Virus record (IMG/VR): IMGVR_UViG_3300020421_000052
Coordinates: 1 to 41,740 of that record
Reading direction: 5' to 3' (one strand)
Source: a virus
Length of the DNA stretch: 41,740 bases
Below, piece by piece: positions 32,362-40,683 of this stretch; positions within the stretch are counted from its first letter, which is position 1, and each line of letters begins with the position of its first letter. The translations under genes and the position numbers were made by a program. The notes beneath the pieces are model-generated. The model made no database searches. It was given only the letters and a program-made list of their open reading frames with translations, and was not told the origin of the DNA.

Positions 32362-32651
32362 TGGCAGTAGGAAAAAGAGCCAAAGCAGTATGTGACATAT
32401 GTGGATTTGTTTATCCTCATAATGTTATGAAGTTAAACTCTTATGGCTTATTAGTTTGCCCTACTGATTTTGATGGTGCTTATGATGAAAAGAATCATCC
32501 ACAAAATAGAGCACCAGATGTAAAAGATGATGAGACGATTAGAAACCCAAGACCTACACGAAGCGAAGCTTTTACAACTTGGGAAAATCAAAATACTAAC
32601 TGGGAAGTAACTACCCAAAATTGGAATATAGTGAGTAATTTAGATGCCTGA
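32361..32651 (+). CDS. Zinc-finger-type structural protein
   Basis: A 96-residue protein with C11-x2-C14 in VCDICGFVYP and C33 in LLVCPTDFDG. In related phage proteins the second knuckle reads CPxC; here Asp36 stands where the fourth cysteine would be, so metal binding may use Asp or be lost. The C-terminal half is polar with NNWEVT-like repeats (WENQNTNWEVTTQNWN). Lies between connector and fibre genes; probably a small virion protein. Confidence 0.65.
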   Translation: MAVGKRAKAVCDICGFVYPHNVMKLNSYGLLVCPTDFDGAYDEKNHPQNRAPDVKDDETIRNPRPTRSEAFTTWENQNTNWEVTTQNWNIVSNLDA

Positions 32652-34455
32652 TTTAACTGGACAAGAAATATCAAATTCGTATAAACGACTATTACAGGTA
32701 AAGACTTCAGCTAATGAAGGAATTACTTCAACTCTAAGGACTATTCAGTCAGGTGACAATTCAGACTCACCTTTACAACTCAACAACTCTACATTAAATG
32801 TTAATGGTACTTTTGCAATAGGTGGTGTAAATCTAACTGCAACTGTTTCATCTTTAAATGCAACTGCAGATATATCAGGTGGTCAAGGTTATATAGTTAT
32901 AGATGGGACGAATGTTTATAAAAGAACTTTTTCTGAGGGTAATGGTATTACTATTACAAATCCAAATGGAGTTGCAAGTAATACAGGTATTGCCTTAACA
33001 AGCACAATAAGTAATATTCAAAGTTTTGGTGCTTCAGCAGTTTCAGCTAATACATTAAATGTTACAGGAACTATGACAGTTTCCTCAATGAGTGTTACTG
33101 ATTTTAATGCAGCTACTGTAAGTGCTACTTTATTAAAAGGTAATAATGCAACAATTGTAAGTACAGTATCAGCAGGATTTTTTGTAGGTGATGGTTCAGG
33201 TTTAACAAATGTTCCTTCTGCTGAAGGTGGTACAGTAAATGCAGTAGTTGCAGGAACAGGTCTTAATGCAACTGTTAATGGTGTAACATCAACAACTGTA
33301 AATACAAGTGGTACTATAAATGTTAATCCTAATCAATCATTTGGTACAGTTTCAGTTTCAACAGGTTTAGTTGTTCCACAAGGAGCAGCAACTTTTTCAG
33401 TTCCTATTAGTGGAGCATCAGCAGTTTTTACAGGTGACGTATCTGCAGCTAATGTTTTTGCAGGAACAAATGTTTATGTAGGTGGTGTAGCAGTTCCAAC
33501 AGCAGCTAATGTGGCTGCAGTATCAGCATTAACTTCTGTTAATAAAGCTGATATAGCTACAAATGTAGCAGCAATAACTTCAGCAAATACAGTTATAGCT
33601 GCAGTATCTGCATTAACATCTGTAAATAAAGCAGCTATAACATCTATAAATGGTATTATAGGTGATGGTGGTAATTATGCCACAAGTGCTGAACTTGCTA
33701 CAGTATCTGCAGCATTAGCTACAAGTATAGGAAATAGTAATACAAATATAGCTGCAGTTTCAGTTTTAACTTCAGTTAATGCAGCAGCTATTACTTCAGT
33801 AAATACAGTAATAGGTGCAGTTTCTGTACTTACAAAAACAAATTTAGATGCCATTACTTCAATCAATACAGTTGTAGGAAATGTTTCATCAACTCTTGCA
33901 ACCTCTATAGCAAATTCAAATACTGCAATAGCTGCAGTTTCAGTTTTAACTTCAGTAAATCTTGCAAGAATAGTTGCAACTTCAGCAGCATTAGCAACAA
34001 GTATTGGAACAAGATTACCATTAGCAGGTGGTGCATTAACTGGAATACTTTCAGCAACTGATGTTATATGTAGTGGAGTAGGTGTAGATGTAGATGCCTT
34101 ATTAGGTAAAGATGTAAGAATTGCAAAAGCTGCAGTAGCTGACATTGTAAGTTTAACTGATGGTGCAAATATATCAGTTGACTTTAATGCAGGTCAAAAC
34201 TTTGCAGTACAATTAGCAGGTAATAGAACAATAGATAATCCTACAAATTGTGTTCCTGGACAAACAGGAAGTATATTTGTAATACAAGATGGAACTGGTA
34301 GTAGAACTTTATCATTTGGAACTAATTATAAATTTCCTGGAGGGACTGCTCCAACATTATCAACAGGTGCAAGTGCATGTGACAGAATTGACTACATTAC
34401 GTTTACGTCAACAAATGTACATGCAGTAGCCACATTGAATGTGAGTACAGCTTAA
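32644..34455 (+). CDS. Tail fibre with repeat stalk
   Basis: A 603-residue protein rich in Ala, Ser, Thr, Val and Asn with no cysteine until the end. Residues about 285-455 are degenerate repeats built on AVSxLTSVNxAAITSxNTVI, typical of trimeric fibre stalks. The C-terminal 125 residues form a compact beta domain (NISVDFNAGQNFAVQLAG, then GQTGSIFVIQDGTGSRTLSF and FPGGTAPTLSTGA) that also ends the fibre at 39712-40683. Such a tip may bind the receptor or template trimerisation. The N-terminus (MPDLTGQEISNSYKRLLQ) would attach to the tail. Confidence 0.8.
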   Translation: MPDLTGQEISNSYKRLLQVKTSANEGITSTLRTIQSGDNSDSPLQLNNSTLNVNGTFAIGGVNLTATVSSLNATADISGGQGYIVIDGTNVYKRTFSEGNGITITNPNGVASNTGIALTSTISNIQSFGASAVSANTLNVTGTMTVSSMSVTDFNAATVSATLLKGNNATIVSTVSAGFFVGDGSGLTNVPSAEGGTVNAVVAGTGLNATVNGVTSTTVNTSGTINVNPNQSFGTVSVSTGLVVPQGAATFSVPISGASAVFTGDVSAANVFAGTNVYVGGVAVPTAANVAAVSALTSVNKADIATNVAAITSANTVIAAVSALTSVNKAAITSINGIIGDGGNYATSAELATVSAALATSIGNSNTNIAAVSVLTSVNAAAITSVNTVIGAVSVLTKTNLDAITSINTVVGNVSSTLATSIANSNTAIAAVSVLTSVNLARIVATSAALATSIGTRLPLAGGALTGILSATDVICSGVGVDVDALLGKDVRIAKAAVADIVSLTDGANISVDFNAGQNFAVQLAGNRTIDNPTNCVPGQTGSIFVIQDGTGSRTLSFGTNYKFPGGTAPTLSTGASACDRIDYITFTSTNVHAVATLNVSTA

Positions 34456-34751
34456 TGGTAGCAAGAATACCTAGAAAAAAAGGTCAACCTGCTAAGAGTA
34501 AAAAACATTCAGACTTATATACTGATGAAGACCCAAAAGGTACAATACATGGTTTAAAGTTTGCAACAGTAGAAGATGCTCAAAGGTCAGTGAGAAAAAT
34601 AAAAAACTCAAGACGTAAACATAATCATAAAACACAAGCAGCAATTGCAATGGAACAAAGAGCAAAAGTTGCAGGTAAAAATAAAGCAGCATTAGTTTAT
34701 AGAAGATTTATTGAACAACAAAAAAAGAAAACAAAAACAAGGACGGCTTAA
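34455..34751 (+). CDS. Conserved basic marine phage protein
   Basis: A 98-residue basic helical protein: KKHSDLYTDEDPKGTIHGLK, then FATVEDAQRSVRKIKNS, RRKHNHKTQAAIAMEQRAKV and a lysine-rich end. The pattern is strongly conserved in marine phages and also met in some giant viruses as far as I recall. The function is unknown. Both ends overlap neighbouring genes (TAATG). Confidence 0.7.
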   Translation: MVARIPRKKGQPAKSKKHSDLYTDEDPKGTIHGLKFATVEDAQRSVRKIKNSRRKHNHKTQAAIAMEQRAKVAGKNKAALVYRRFIEQQKKKTKTRTA

Positions 34752-36229
34752 TGGCAGTATTTCAAAATAACTTATTAGCAGGAGCAGGTGCACAATCTAG
34801 TGGTGGTACAGTACACACAATAGACCAATCGATTCGTTTTAATGATGATGATTCACCAGCTTTAAATAAAACATATTCTGGTGCTGGTTCAAGAGTAAAA
34901 TTTACATATAGTTGTTGGCTTAAAGTAGCAACTACTGATACTGGTAGTGGTTTTCCTTTGTTCAATGGAGGAACTGGTACTAGTGACACTACTTGGTCTG
35001 GTGTATCTTATTATCAAGGTATGATATATGCACAAGGTTATAGTACAAACTGGAGAATAACAACAAGAAAACTAAGAGACCCTGCAGCTTGGTATCATAT
35101 AGTTTATGTATGGGACACAGGTCAAGTAGCTGATACTGAAAGAATAAAAATATTTATAAATGGTGTTAGAGAAACAGAATTTTCTACATTTAATCATCCA
35201 GCTAAAGATGCACAGTCTGGTATAGGACAAGCATCACAACAACATACTATAGGTTATCAATCAAGAACAGTTGGTTGGGGTTATGCAGATGCTTATTTAG
35301 CAGACATGGTATATCTGGATGGTACTGCAGCAGACCCTTCTAGCTTTGCTGAATATAATGAAAATGGAATATGGGTTCCTAAAGATGTAAGTGGTCTGAC
35401 ATTTGGTACTAATGGTTTTCATATTGATGGTAGAGATAGTGCAGACCTTGGAGATGATGAATCAGGGCAAGGTAATGATTACACATCTACAGGACTTGCA
35501 GCACATGACCAAGTTAGTGACTCACCTACAAATAATTTTTGTGTTGTTAATCCTTTATATAGAGGTACAGCTACAACAGTAGCAGCATATGGTACATTAG
35601 CAAATGGTAATTTAGAATTTAGTTATACAAATGCAAATAATGCTGGTCAATTATGCACTGAACTTTTTACGAGTGGTAAATGGTATTGGGAGATGAGAAT
35701 GGTTGCTGGTGGTGGTAGTTCAAGCTATTTTAACAGTAGTGGTATTGCAGCAGTAAATGATGGTTATGTTAAATCAGATACAAATATGCATGGAACAGTT
35801 GCTGGTGAAATAGGTTTTAATTCATATAATGGTGAGTGTAAAGCATTTGGTTCTTTAACAAAAACATATACAGAAGTTCCATTTGTTGATGGAGATATAT
35901 TACAAGTTGCAGTAGATGCTGATAATGGTGCTATATATTATGGTAAAAATGGAACATTTATGGGTTCTGGTGACCCAACATCTGGTGCTAGTAAAACAAA
36001 TGCTGGTGCAACTTGGACACCTTCTAGTTATTCTGGTGGTTGGGTTCCAACAGTTGGTGCACTAGGTGGGAGTGTTCCTAAAGTAATGATGAATTTTGGA
36101 CAAGAAGGAACTTTTGCAGGAGGCACAACTGCTGGTAATAATAGTGATGGTAATTCAGTAGGTAATTTTAAATATAGTGTACCAAGTGGGTATTTAGCAA
36201 TTTGTACAAAGAATTTAGGAGCAGAGTAA
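34751..36229 (+). CDS. LamG/SPRY-type tail adhesin
   Basis: A 492-residue protein. The N-terminal half (about residues 25-215) has the LamG or concanavalin-A-like pattern: FTYSCWLKV, AWYHIVYVWDTG, KIFINGVRETEF and ADAYLADMVYLDGTA. A linker GTNGFHI...DDESGQGNDYTSTG precedes a second beta-sandwich (about 275-480) with GKWYWEMRM and VDGDILQVAVDADNGAIYYG, like SPRY domains. Such proteins probably bind carbohydrates on the host surface. It is a paralogue of the next gene, sharing domain order and linker. Confidence 0.78.
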   Translation: MAVFQNNLLAGAGAQSSGGTVHTIDQSIRFNDDDSPALNKTYSGAGSRVKFTYSCWLKVATTDTGSGFPLFNGGTGTSDTTWSGVSYYQGMIYAQGYSTNWRITTRKLRDPAAWYHIVYVWDTGQVADTERIKIFINGVRETEFSTFNHPAKDAQSGIGQASQQHTIGYQSRTVGWGYADAYLADMVYLDGTAADPSSFAEYNENGIWVPKDVSGLTFGTNGFHIDGRDSADLGDDESGQGNDYTSTGLAAHDQVSDSPTNNFCVVNPLYRGTATTVAAYGTLANGNLEFSYTNANNAGQLCTELFTSGKWYWEMRMVAGGGSSSYFNSSGIAAVNDGYVKSDTNMHGTVAGEIGFNSYNGECKAFGSLTKTYTEVPFVDGDILQVAVDADNGAIYYGKNGTFMGSGDPTSGASKTNAGATWTPSSYSGGWVPTVGALGGSVPKVMMNFGQEGTFAGGTTAGNNSDGNSVGNFKYSVPSGYLAICTKNLGAE

Positions 36230-36230
36230 C

Positions 36231-39023
36231 ATGACAACACCAACAATACCAAATGGCGAAGAACATTTTTTTACAACAAGATATTCTGGAAATGGAACAG
36301 CACAACGTGTGGGTAAGTTTGTACCTTTTACTGATAGTGGTACGATTGCTAATAGTGTTATGTTTAATGATGCTGATGATGCCTATTTAGCAAGAACATT
36401 TTCAACACCTACTAATAATAAAAAATGGACATATAGTGTTTGGTTTAAAAGATGTACATTAGGTACAAATCAAGCTCTTATGTCTGCTGATTATGATGGT
36501 GCTACTTATTGGGATATGAGGTTTAATACAAGCGACCAAATATACATACAAAATCGTATTGGTTCTTCAAATATTTTATCAGTAAATACAACAAGAACTT
36601 TTAAAGATACAAGTAAATGGTATCATTTGCTTTTTGTTTATGATTCTGATAATTCAACTTCAACAAGTAGAGCAATTCTTTACATAGATGGTGATGTTCA
36701 AACACTTAGTGGATATCCAAGTTCTGGTGATGCTAGTGCTTACAATGTAAATTCAGAACCACATCATATAGGAGTTTCAAGAACTGCTGATGCTTCTGGT
36801 GCTATTTGGTCGGAGTTTGATGGTTATTTTGCAGAAGCTAATTTCGTTGATGGACAAGCATTACTACCAGCTTCATTTGGCGAAACTGATACATCAACTG
36901 GAAGATGGATTCCATCAACAGTCAAACCTTATCCTACAACTACAACTGATATTGCAGTTACAGTTGTGAGTAGTGGTGGTAATAAATATGCTTTAGATGG
37001 TGTAACTCAAGGAACAGTAACTTTAATTGAAGGTGCAACTTATAAGTTTGACCAAAGTGATTCATCAAACTCAGGACATCCATTAAGATTTTCTACAACT
37101 TCAGATGGAACACATGGTGGTGGCTCAGAGTTTACAAGTGGAGTAACAACTGCTGGAACCCCAGGTTCAAGTGGTGCTTATACAGAAATAACAGTGCCAA
37201 CAGGAACAGCTACATTATATTATTATTGCACTAATCATAGTGGTATGGGTGGTACTGCAAATACTCAAAACCAGTATGGCACTAATGGATTTAGATTAAA
37301 ATTTCAAGATAGTTCAGCATTCGGAGATGATACCAGTGGAAATGGTAATGATTTTACATCTAGTAGTTTAACAGCATCTGACCAACGAACTGACTCACCT
37401 ACAAATAATATGCCTACAATGAGACCTTATAACCCTAGTTACTCACAAGCATTCGCTGAAGGTAATATGCAACATGCTACAACTGGGTTTAATGTTGGTT
37501 ATCCAGTTGTTTCAACTTTACGTCCAAAAGGTTCTGGAAAGTTTTATGCTGAGTGTAGAGCAAGTGAGGCTTCAGGTGGTTATAATTTAACCTTTGGATG
37601 TTTTGCACAAGAAGATTTACATAATTATTCAAGTGGAGCAATTTATCCTGGTAATGCAAACTGGGGTTCTGGATTATGGGTAGAACCAAATCAATATGTA
37701 AGATGGAATGGAGTAACTTCATATACCAATTACACTCCTTTTACTTTTGATGCAGGGGACGTTATAGGCTTGGCTTTAGATTTAGATATAGGATTACTTT
37801 CCTTTTATGATGATGATAATGCTTTGATAGGTAGTATAACATGGGATAGAGAAAAAAGTGCTTGTTTTACTGCAATGTCAAACAAAGCTGTTACTTTTAT
37901 TTGGAACTTTGGAGATAATCCAACATTCAATGGTACTGAAACAGCAGGTGGTAATACTGATGGGGATGGTAATGGAAACTTTTTAAAGAGTGTTCCAACT
38001 GGGTTTAAAGTGCTTAAACAAGACAACATGGCAGAAACATCTAAAGGTGTCCCTGGTTTAACTTGGACAAAAGATAGAGATGCTGCTGTTTCTTGGATGT
38101 GTATTGATTCATCTCGTGTTTATACAGCAGAGGGTGTGCCTGGAGCAATGAACTTAAATAATACAAATAGAGAATATGGACAAATTGATTTTGTTGATGG
38201 AATTAATAAATTTTTAAAAGGTGGTTATACAGTAATGACTTCAAATTCTGGTGCTTCCTATATGAACTCAGCAGGGTCTAATTATGTTAGTTTTTCATGG
38301 GTAGCTAATAGTGGAACAAAAGTTACAAATACAACTGGTTCAATTACATCTACTGTTCAAGCAAATACAACTGCAGGTTTTTCAATAGTACAATATGTTG
38401 GAACTGGTAGTTCAGGTTCAGTTGGTCATGGTTTGACTGCTGCACCATCATGGATGATATTTAAAGATAGAGATACTGATTCTACAAATTGGAGAGTTTA
38501 TCATAAATCTTTAGGAGGTATAACAAAATATCAAATATTAAATACTAATGGTGCTACTCAAACTGCATCTATGTGGGGTGCTCCTACAGCTTCAGCTTTT
38601 ATTATTGGTGGTACTGGTTATGAAGTAAATGAAAGTGGTAGGAACTATGTTGCCTATTGTTGGCATGAAGTAGAAGGTTATAGTAAATTTGGAAGCTATA
38701 TGGGAACTGGTCTTGAAGATGGTCCATTTATATATACAGGATTTAAACCTAGTTGGATAATGCATAAAGCAAATAATGCTGCTAGTTGGTATGCTTATGA
38801 TGTTCGTAGGTCACCAATTAATCCAGTATTACTTCCAGTTTATCCTGATGGAACTTATGTAGAGACTCCTAATGTTTATGGTTTTGACCTACTTAGTAAT
38901 GGTTTTAAAGTAAGACAACCTAGTGGTTATGGTGGTAATTATAGTGGAGTTGAAACTTATTACATGGCATTTGCTGAACATCCATTCGTTGGTGATGGAA
39001 CTAGTCCTACAACTGCAAGATAG
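36231..39023 (+). CDS. Large tail adhesin: LamG, inserted cupredoxin-like and SPRY-like domains
   Basis: A 930-residue paralogue of the previous protein. LamG-like domain at about 40-215 (YSVWFKRC, KWYHLLFVYDSD, FAEANFVDGQA). Residues about 231-349 are an extra domain absent from the paralogue; it has the type-1 copper ligand pattern H283 (GHPLRF), C333, H336 and M339 (YYYCTNHSGMGG), as in plastocyanin-like proteins. Then come the shared linker (GDDTSGNGNDFTSSS), a SPRY-like domain (about 410-600, ending PTGFKVLKQDNMAETSKG), and a C-terminal part of about 320 residues (GLTAAPSWMIFKDRD, FKPSWIMHKA) common in marine phage structural proteins. Role: host-surface binding; copper binding is inferred. 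Confidence 0.8.
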   Translation: MTTPTIPNGEEHFFTTRYSGNGTAQRVGKFVPFTDSGTIANSVMFNDADDAYLARTFSTPTNNKKWTYSVWFKRCTLGTNQALMSADYDGATYWDMRFNTSDQIYIQNRIGSSNILSVNTTRTFKDTSKWYHLLFVYDSDNSTSTSRAILYIDGDVQTLSGYPSSGDASAYNVNSEPHHIGVSRTADASGAIWSEFDGYFAEANFVDGQALLPASFGETDTSTGRWIPSTVKPYPTTTTDIAVTVVSSGGNKYALDGVTQGTVTLIEGATYKFDQSDSSNSGHPLRFSTTSDGTHGGGSEFTSGVTTAGTPGSSGAYTEITVPTGTATLYYYCTNHSGMGGTANTQNQYGTNGFRLKFQDSSAFGDDTSGNGNDFTSSSLTASDQRTDSPTNNMPTMRPYNPSYSQAFAEGNMQHATTGFNVGYPVVSTLRPKGSGKFYAECRASEASGGYNLTFGCFAQEDLHNYSSGAIYPGNANWGSGLWVEPNQYVRWNGVTSYTNYTPFTFDAGDVIGLALDLDIGLLSFYDDDNALIGSITWDREKSACFTAMSNKAVTFIWNFGDNPTFNGTETAGGNTDGDGNGNFLKSVPTGFKVLKQDNMAETSKGVPGLTWTKDRDAAVSWMCIDSSRVYTAEGVPGAMNLNNTNREYGQIDFVDGINKFLKGGYTVMTSNSGASYMNSAGSNYVSFSWVANSGTKVTNTTGSITSTVQANTTAGFSIVQYVGTGSSGSVGHGLTAAPSWMIFKDRDTDSTNWRVYHKSLGGITKYQILNTNGATQTASMWGAPTASAFIIGGTGYEVNESGRNYVAYCWHEVEGYSKFGSYMGTGLEDGPFIYTGFKPSWIMHKANNAASWYAYDVRRSPINPVLLPVYPDGTYVETPNVYGFDLLSNGFKVRQPSGYGGNYSGVETYYMAFAEHPFVGDGTSPTTAR

Positions 39024-39711: not shown

Positions 39712-40683
39712 ATGGCAACATTTACGTCAAGAATTAGACTTGAGAAGCAAGACAATGGAGCAAACTCAGGAACATGGGGTACTGTACTTAATCAAAACGT
39801 AATTGATTTGGTTGATGATGCAGTTGCAGGTTATACTATTGTTTCATGTAGTTCAGCAATAACATTATCATCTAATAATGGTTCTGCTGACCAATCTCGT
39901 AGTGCAATTCTTGAACTTCAAGGAACATTAACATCTAGTGTTGACATTACAATTCCATCAGTATCTAAAATTTATTTTGTAAAAAATAATACTTCAGGTT
40001 CACATGCAATTACATTAAAAACTGCAGCAACAACTGCAAAAACTACAGTTACTCAAGGTGGTACTGGTCCATTTATTTGTGATGGTACTAATGTATTTAC
40101 AGGTGCTGATACTACAGGTTTAGGTTTAGGAACTGCTGCAACATTAAACTTTGGTACATCAGTTAATGAATTAATTCCAGTATCAAGTGCAGACGTAAGA
40201 TATATACCTACTTCAACTTCATCAACAATAACTTCTAATAAAGTATTTAGTGGTACTGTAATTACTTCAGGAACAAATACTTTTACTTCAATTACTACAC
40301 ACTCAGGTAAGTCAGTATTTACTGCTGAAGTATCTGCAGCTTCATCAGCAACTTTTTCAGGTGCAGTAGGAACTCCTGAAGTTTCAATTGCAAGTGCAAC
40401 TTCAATGAATATAGATTTTTCAGCAGGAAATAATTTTGCTATTACGTTAGGAACAAACGCAACTCTTGCAGGAGCAGTTAATGGTAAGGTAGGTCAATCA
40501 GGTACAATAACAATAACGCAAGATGGTACAGGAAGCAGAACATTATCTTATGGTGATGCTTATAATTTTCCAAGTGGAACAGCACCTACACTTTCAACTG
40601 CTGCTGCTGCAAAAGATATTATAGTTTATAAGGTCAGAGAAGTTTCATCTGTAGATTGTGCCAGTCTTCTTAATCTTTCATAG
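39712..40683 (+). CDS. Tail fibre sharing the C-terminal tip of the 32644 fibre
   Basis: A 323-residue protein. The start SRIRLEKQDNGANSGTWGTV is a recurrent N-terminus of marine phage tail proteins. After Ser/Thr-rich beta repeats, the last 100 residues (MNIDFSAGNNFAITLGTNA, then GQSGTITITQDGTGSRTLSY and FPSGTAPTLSTAAA) are clearly homologous to the end of the fibre at 32644-34455. AGGGGAAAA precedes the ATG. Likely receptor-binding or fibre-tip protein. Confidence 0.75.
   Translation: MATFTSRIRLEKQDNGANSGTWGTVLNQNVIDLVDDAVAGYTIVSCSSAITLSSNNGSADQSRSAILELQGTLTSSVDITIPSVSKIYFVKNNTSGSHAITLKTAATTAKTTVTQGGTGPFICDGTNVFTGADTTGLGLGTAATLNFGTSVNELIPVSSADVRYIPTSTSSTITSNKVFSGTVITSGTNTFTSITTHSGKSVFTAEVSAASSATFSGAVGTPEVSIASATSMNIDFSAGNNFAITLGTNATLAGAVNGKVGQSGTITITQDGTGSRTLSYGDAYNFPSGTAPTLSTAAAAKDIIVYKVREVSSVDCASLLNLS

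Follow-up and report, generated by a model that had tools for sequence, protein, structure and literature searches.

A cupredoxin-like module with a predicted type-1 copper site inserted in a phage adhesin

The window analysed here is the entire IMG/VR virus record IMGVR_UViG_3300020421_000052 (41,740 bases), and the element in question is a segment of 120 residues that lies within an adhesin-like virion protein of 930 residues. The segment is almost certainly a cupredoxin homologue. It is probably a ligand-intact cupredoxin module, optional and horizontally exchanged, that occupies a loop within the adhesin's LamG/pentraxin-like fold and would serve as an accessory copper surface module; that its predicted site binds copper is quite likely. 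The boundaries of the insert and the four ligands are located as follows:

36915..37274, + strand: cupredoxin insert, residues 229-348, between TSTGRWIP and YGTNGFR, delimited by the empty site of 46 orthologues
37077..37079, + strand: H283, first ligand, aligned with the copper-ligand His of plastocyanin and pseudoazurin
37227..37229, + strand: C333, ligand, aligned with the copper-ligand Cys
37236..37238, + strand: H336, ligand, aligned with the copper-ligand His
37245..37247, + strand: M339, axial ligand; C-x2-H-x2-M is present in 284 of the 285 domains with His, Cys, His and Met (HCHM domains)

A first-pass annotation of the window had pointed to H283, C333, H336 and M339 in the adhesin, and all four stand where it placed them (nucleotides 37077, 37227, 37236 and 37245). 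The same annotation described about 119 extra residues that the neighbouring paralogue does not have; the paralogue indeed lacks the segment and the insert is real, its size being 120 residues that replace 7, for a net gain of 113. The ligand motif reads YYYCTNHSGMGG, and C333 is the sole cysteine that the adhesin has between residues 75 and 442. The order and spacing of the ligands fit the type-1 pattern His ... Cys-x(2-4)-His-x(2-4)-Met, with the Cys at the end of a strand. C-x2-H-x2-M occurs 551 times in 84,265 domain residues versus 18 times in 1,678,552 residues elsewhere (other six-frame open reading frames, ORFs, of the fetched loci), which amounts to an enrichment of about 600-fold within the domain and to a chance expectation of about 0.001 per 118 residues.

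The insert had been placed between the LamG domain and a shared linker, and this part of the earlier description has to be revised. The model of the full-length protein (predicted local distance difference test, pLDDT, 74.7) matches pentraxins, agrin, PAPP-A and BACOVA_03559 with VIA-align Z scores of 15-20.5, as a concanavalin A-like sandwich does. These LamG/pentraxin matches start at residue 37-39 and end at 386-394, and are followed by the SPRY-like domain at 393-599. Because the matches reach the ends of the pentraxin chains only past the insert, the match ranges indicate that the insert splits the LamG/pentraxin-like fold, with the cupredoxin seated inside one of the LamG loops; the "shared linker" right behind it would therefore be the end of the LamG fold. 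Pfam finds no LamG domain in the window ORF itself at E ≤ 1, and Laminin_G_3 is matched in a relative with an empty site (L568, E 5.3e-13).

The cupredoxin reading of the first-pass annotation, for which it had proposed structure prediction and fold comparison as checks, is borne out by the model of the insert and its solved-structure matches, by the profile alignments and by the conservation of the ligands. This AlphaFold2 model (positions 36921-37307, from 83 sequences) is confident, with a pLDDT of 90.0 and a predicted template modelling score of 0.83, and consists almost entirely of beta structure in nine strands. C333 (model residue 103) closes the strand 99-103, and H336 and M339 lie in the loop ahead of the last strand. 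Whether the four residues lie far apart, which the first-pass annotation took as a refutation of its reading, was judged from this topology and from the alignments. The predicted fold and its structural matches correspond to a cupredoxin-type Greek-key beta-sandwich, copper proteins being the best solved matches. Foldseek against the PDB gave 14 matches at E ≤ 0.001, every one a copper protein. Of the 50 rows listed, 48 bear the name of a copper protein, and the other two are coagulation factor VIII and a type II secretion chain; the solved structures matched include rusticyanin, nitrite reductase, auracyanin and laccases. In VIA-align, nitrite reductase 2dv6 reaches Z 9.6 (root-mean-square deviation, rmsd, 3.0; 102 residues aligned) and rusticyanin 2cal reaches Z 9.3 (rmsd 2.8; 105 aligned), with Z ≥ 8 for 48 of 999 chains. 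Values of Z below 8 can be common, and therefore the structural case leans on the consistency of the matched family and on the sequence profile.

In searches of PDB sequences, copper proteins were reached only with a profile of 95 members. The single window sequence gave nothing other than weak antibody and capsid matches (best E 0.059), and a 19-member profile found nothing useful (best E 0.01, to SUMO). The 95-member profile matched 55 copper proteins and 5 antibody light chains among the 60 matches listed of 74, the best being nitrite reductase (E 1.7e-7), with pseudoazurin at 3.8e-5 and plastocyanin at 1.4e-3. In the profile alignments, the His, Cys, His and Met of the family fall on the ligands of pseudoazurin, plastocyanin and nitrite reductase. 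The 95 members were chosen for having these four residues, and for that reason the invariant ligand columns of the profile are no evidence of conservation. Pfam Copper-bind matches 20 of the 95 members at E ≤ 0.1, and the domains of L163, L145 and L105 score 22.2-22.3 bits when trimmed, the complete L163 ORF scoring 20.4. The NCBIfam models of plastocyanin, amicyanin, halocyanin, rusticyanin or pseudoazurin match a few members at E ≤ 0.01. PF25489 (At5g54830-like) is matched by 23 of the 95 (best E 2.1e-6), with 16.4-16.6 bits in two checked members, compared with a cutoff of 27. The family also has a long conserved segment of its own, GTPGSSGAYTxITV.

The conservation of the ligands was surveyed with queries that are blind to them. 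Scan A9, for which the query was the 45 residues before H283, returned 80 loci (1 cut off), and all four ligands are present in 78 of the 79 that are readable: C-x2-H-x2-M in 77 (one a duplicate) and C-x4-H-x2-M in L421, while L449 is without the Cys and a His. The ligand columns reach 79-80 of 80 versus 71% for the median column, and are thus among the most conserved; the FDQSD..N columns owe their conservation to the search pattern. Scan A10, for which the query was the stretch between H283 and C333, also returned 80 loci (2 cut off), with all four ligands in 77 of 78 readable loci and Asp, Cys, His and Leu in the remaining one (L505). The A9 and A10 sets have no domain sequence in common. 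Four ligands are likewise found in 8/8 readable inserts of a scan anchored on LamG. Random loss of the ligands, against which the first-pass annotation had proposed to check its reading, is not seen; loss is rare and mostly wholesale.

The remaining counts come from sets of other composition. Taken together, the first four viral scans and the named phages yielded 334 distinct domains (352 hits minus the window copy, L099, and exact duplicates), of which 285 are HCHM domains, a figure that is not used as a rate because two of the scans (A2, A3) used ligand-containing patterns. Scan A4 used ligand-free patterns but a site-less sequence as the query, and gave HCHM in 44/46 domains for L281-L325 and in 0/35 for L246-L280. 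Regions of named phages have HCHM in 17/25 domain rows, again not a rate, the regions having been chosen partly for alignments that stop before the motif. Among genome contigs, four ligands were found in 78 of 84 domain rows by script and in two more by reading (L356, L402); the others are L369, with Gln for Met, one site-less copy of L404 and two copies of L382 (one cut off). An axial Gln with His-Cys-His kept is rare, examples being L101 in the viral set and L369 in the genome contigs. As far as sequences can tell, the ligands are conserved across the family and lost in the PHROG 693 clade.

The insert is an optional and mobile module that is exchanged independently of its flanks, in a mosaic fashion. 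This was observed in the LamG-anchored scan, which is blind to the insert (80 loci) and replaces an earlier comparison of loci selected by their insert. At the second gene of the pair, TSTGRWIP and YGTNGFR enclose exactly 7 residues in 46 ORFs (empty site) and 112-137 residues in 7 ORFs (filled site); the site is filled in L617 too, L566 shows the start of an insert, L567 is cut off just ahead of it and L627 is of another type. L568 has 88% identity to the window upstream, yet its site is empty. The synonymous divergence (dS) of L569 is 0.11 upstream versus 1.13 in the insert, and that of L571 is 0.59 upstream versus 0.13 in the insert; in L571 and L640, amino-acid identity is 45-49% upstream and 96-98% in the insert. 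The insert is under purifying selection, its nonsynonymous divergence (dN, 0.03-0.33) being below dS in 7/7 comparisons. Since it is missing from most orthologous adhesins, it is not the essential receptor-binding part. A contrast in conservation between the insert (93% identity) and the LamG, SPRY and DUF7483 parts (41-47%) was dropped, given that the loci had been selected by insert similarity.

Beyond this adhesin, the domain is a mobile accessory module both in aquatic phages, where virion proteins carry it, and in lipoproteins of marine bacteria and archaea. It was found in 71 of 50,697 phage records, all 71 with aquatic names or hosts: 59 are cyanophages by first word, and the rest are Methylophilales, Pelagibacter, "Marine" and "uncultured" phages and one "phage" from seawater. 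Podovirus tail fibres carry it close to their C-terminus (Pelagibacter phages Baldr and HTVC028P); further carriers are the baseplate and tail-fibre families PHROG 677, 708 and 30742 and a structural protein of S-TIM5 encoded close to the portal gene. BFVD structures of domain-bearing proteins match the model, one of them named immunoglobulin domain-containing. The model is also matched, at E 2e-7 to 6e-7, by three other BFVD entries (A0A481YVH3, A0A481Z6J5, A0A481Z7Q7), which are small "beta-sandwich" proteins from LCPAC genomes of Marseillevirus and Pithovirus. A phage protein of 220-260 residues (L326, L074, L072 and similar), with an N-terminal FASGK...ISDRSGFRYR (PHROG 28581), ends exactly at the cupredoxin; in the first scan, 22 of the 82 domain rows have a DRSG[FW] motif in their ORFs.

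When 84,980 species genomes were scanned, with ligand residues included in one pattern, 80 loci were returned, several of them clearly cellular. The cellular carriers are lipoproteins, of 183 residues in SAR86, with collagen-like stalks in Marine Group II and with cadherin-like domains in gammaproteobacteria; the neighbours of L392, L350 and L372 are metabolic or other cellular genes. The tree places the cell lipoproteins among viral domains, with few forks resolved. SAR11-labelled loci (L366, L375, L376, L381, L391, L393) encode proteins of 584-703 residues with the domain near the C-terminus. One of these, L375, matches phage tail-fibre PHROG families, and the SAR11-labelled contigs are likely viruses or prophages within SAR11 assemblies. 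L382 and L397 (QCLS01000003.1, 189 kb, binned as Prochlorococcus) encode long domain proteins that the tree groups with the copies of P-HM1 and Syn1; this contig is probably a virus in a single-cell genome.

It is well known that cupredoxins are secreted electron carriers and domains of enzymes. The window domain shares with them (PF00127; plastocyanin, pseudoazurin, amicyanin, rusticyanin, NirK domain) the predicted fold, the order of the ligands and their alignment, as well as a loop length within the known range. Unlike them, it lies inside a virion protein, has no signal peptide, bears Pro after the first His, falls below the Pfam cutoff and belongs to a family with the conserved segment given above. 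The lipoproteins of SAR86, Marine Group II archaea, K189A and Woeseiaceae have the same domain, mostly with four ligands, but they are cell proteins that are anchored through a lipobox and have cadherin-like or collagen-like stalks. The accessory immunoglobulin-like (Ig-like) domains of tailed phages are also optional, horizontally spread beta-sandwich modules on various virion proteins; the window module differs from them in its cupredoxin fold and metal ligands. Cyanophage petE encodes a type-1 copper plastocyanin as a separate photosynthesis gene of 324-369 nucleotides, according to a paper that also covers the virion proteomics of S-SM1 (PMC3037559). It is a small, stand-alone, non-virion gene, whereas the window domain is part of an ORF of 930 residues. 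Iron sites with HxH motifs, as in T4 gp37, have been proposed to bring metal into marine phage tails (PMC11705849); the metal and the motif are different, and no H-x-H is present within the 930 residues of the window adhesin. Among the papers that the literature searches listed, judged by titles and the starts of abstracts and with subscription journals and preprints outside the scope, none reports this domain in a phage. Two candidates from them were set aside as unrelated to the virion module: a genuine viral nirK (PMC8115048) and archaeal halocyanins (PMC4535781).

According to the proposed mechanism, the protein would be made in its apo form in the reducing cytosol, and the site would take up one copper ion after lysis, from the lysate or from seawater; the copper would then lock the loop by which the fold is closed. 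The domain might act as an accessory at the virion surface that strengthens or tunes how the tail contacts cells or polymers, or that adds to stability. A role in surface contact, drawn by analogy, is offered tentatively; display at the surface is supported by the PHROG tail and baseplate families and by the lipoproteins of marine cells. If copper is held, it would represent a metal cofactor in phage tails distinct from the known iron sites. Even without copper, the result corrects records in which such proteins are named Ig-like or hypothetical, and the natural series of presence, absence and site loss offers a means of probing the function of the module. A broader and rather doubtful proposal is that copper is a functional component of the virion in marine tailed phages, carried in a mobile type-1 module that they share with surface lipoproteins of neighbouring microbes and that is loaded on release and acts at host contact, in which case copper supply would tune infection and phages would be part of the marine pool of organic copper ligands.

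Several observations weigh against a copper site. The residue after H283 is Pro, while Asn is usual after the first ligand in plastocyanin and azurin; the window's own domain has no match to a Pfam or NCBIfam copper family and is not above the gathering cutoff of PF00127 (21.2 bits); and a phage protein made in the cytosol meets almost no free copper. Ligand loss, moreover, is found chiefly in one clade (PHROG 693: S-SSM4, S-H25 and relatives; SH-aLRT, the Shimodaira-Hasegawa-like approximate likelihood ratio test, 100%), whose long stem of 1.33 changes per site looks as if constraint had been lifted once the site was lost. Further site-less copies are found in long cyanophage proteins (Syn1, S-CAM4 and ACG-2014h); the site is also lost in second copies within some cyanophage proteins and in single cases such as L282, L184 and L234. 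The domain is kept after the site is lost, and therefore the fold is usable without metal. Wholesale loss, on the other hand, is to be expected if the four ligands work together. The 6 ligand changes on the tree are indicative only, because the tree rests on few columns, the ligand columns among them, and leaves many forks open.

The site-less PHROG 693 clade and the second copies without ligands in cyanophage proteins favour the idea of a cupredoxin fold that acts as a stable beta-sandwich spacer, its ligands being relics or binding nothing. The first-pass annotation had mentioned such a use of the fold only as scaffold; it suits one derived clade and not the window protein. Nearly all domains in the ligand-blind scans retain the four residues, which exceed the 71% median column, and their loss is mostly wholesale, all of which makes this explanation quite unlikely. 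The scarcity of copper during folding in the cytosol would also suit a site that holds Zn or Cu(I) structurally, or a C333 that is a free thiol, and apo cupredoxins can bind zinc. An axial Met and an amicyanin-like C-x2-H-x2-M loop are, however, typical of copper sites, and nitrite reductase 6hbe shares this spacing in the profile alignment; another metal, or none, is very unlikely. The Ig-like assignment of some public records is almost certainly mistaken. The matching protein of MED4-213 (L097) is named Immunoglobulin domain-containing, that of P-HM1 (L092) has a PF07686 note, and the single-sequence search matches antibody heavy chains via a YYC motif at the same best E value of 0.059; these points are outweighed by copper proteins coming first in the structure and profile searches, and PF07686 is not among the Pfam matches of the 95 members. 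The domain that is repeated in the proteins of P-HM1 and MED4-213 is a cupredoxin.

Two further explanations accept the copper site and give it another purpose. The tail might show it to a copper-uptake or surface system of the host, as bait or cargo, in a copper analogue of the "Ferrojan horse". This idea agrees with all 71 phage records being aquatic by name or host and with a ligand site that is retained while the surrounding domain varies, and it has a precedent in the iron that T4 gp37 holds in HxH sites, together with the Trojan-horse proposal (PMC11705849). The module is nevertheless absent from 46 orthologous adhesins that presumably still serve in infection, a receptor for it is not known, and the domain is found in host-type lipoproteins too, which renders the bait unlikely. 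Alternatively, the module might be redox-active, as an electron shuttle or as a tail switch triggered by redox state or copper. Type-1 sites with the same ligands are electron-transfer sites in the matched proteins, and the rare axial Gln variants (L101, L369) keep His-Cys-His, a change known in natural blue copper proteins. No partner gene was noticed adjoining, in what was not a systematic survey, and the virion proteins that carry it (LamG, tail-fibre and baseplate proteins) have many unrelated architectures, which does not suggest a single redox partner; a redox role has a very low probability. The accessory copper surface module stands as the preferred reading.

The other features of the adhesin and its neighbour are the following:

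36231..39023, + strand: adhesin-like virion protein, 930 residues (ORF), with the LamG/pentraxin-like fold, cupredoxin insert, SPRY and DUF7483
36345..36914, + strand: LamG/pentraxin-like fold, first part, residues 39-228 (VIA-align structural matches)
37275..37412, + strand: LamG/pentraxin-like fold, closing part past the insert, residues 349-394 (whole-pentraxin matches stop at 386-394)
37413..38027, + strand: SPRY-like domain, residues 395-599 (Ash2L SPRY, Z 16.9 at 393-598)
38049..38984, + strand: DUF7483, residues 607-918 (Pfam PF24299, 270.5 bits, E 2.5e-80)
34751..36229, + strand: neighbouring paralogue, 492 residues (ORF), LamG and SPRY without the insert
35381..35401, + strand: equivalent of the empty site in the paralogue, 7 residues between VP and FGTNGF (sequence)

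The protein of 930 residues and its neighbour of 492 are paralogous across the LamG-like and SPRY-like parts (BLASTP E 3e-28), the Pfam match to SPRY in the former being below the cutoff (E 0.0014). The larger ORF matches PHROG 19943, 24898 and 27411 (tail and structural families), and we infer from these families and from the LamG and SPRY folds that it is a tail adhesin. The DNA polymerase of the window is closest to those of Pelagibacter phages HTVC104P, HTVC103P and HTVC115P (50-54% identity), and its terminase to those of HTVC023P and HTVC027P (40-41%); a SAR11-like host is our guess. Elsewhere in the window, the ORFs at 32644-34455 and 39712-40683 have a common C-terminal stretch (of the QDGTGSRTLSYG/QDGTGSRTLSFG type), and PHROG 4757 matches both.

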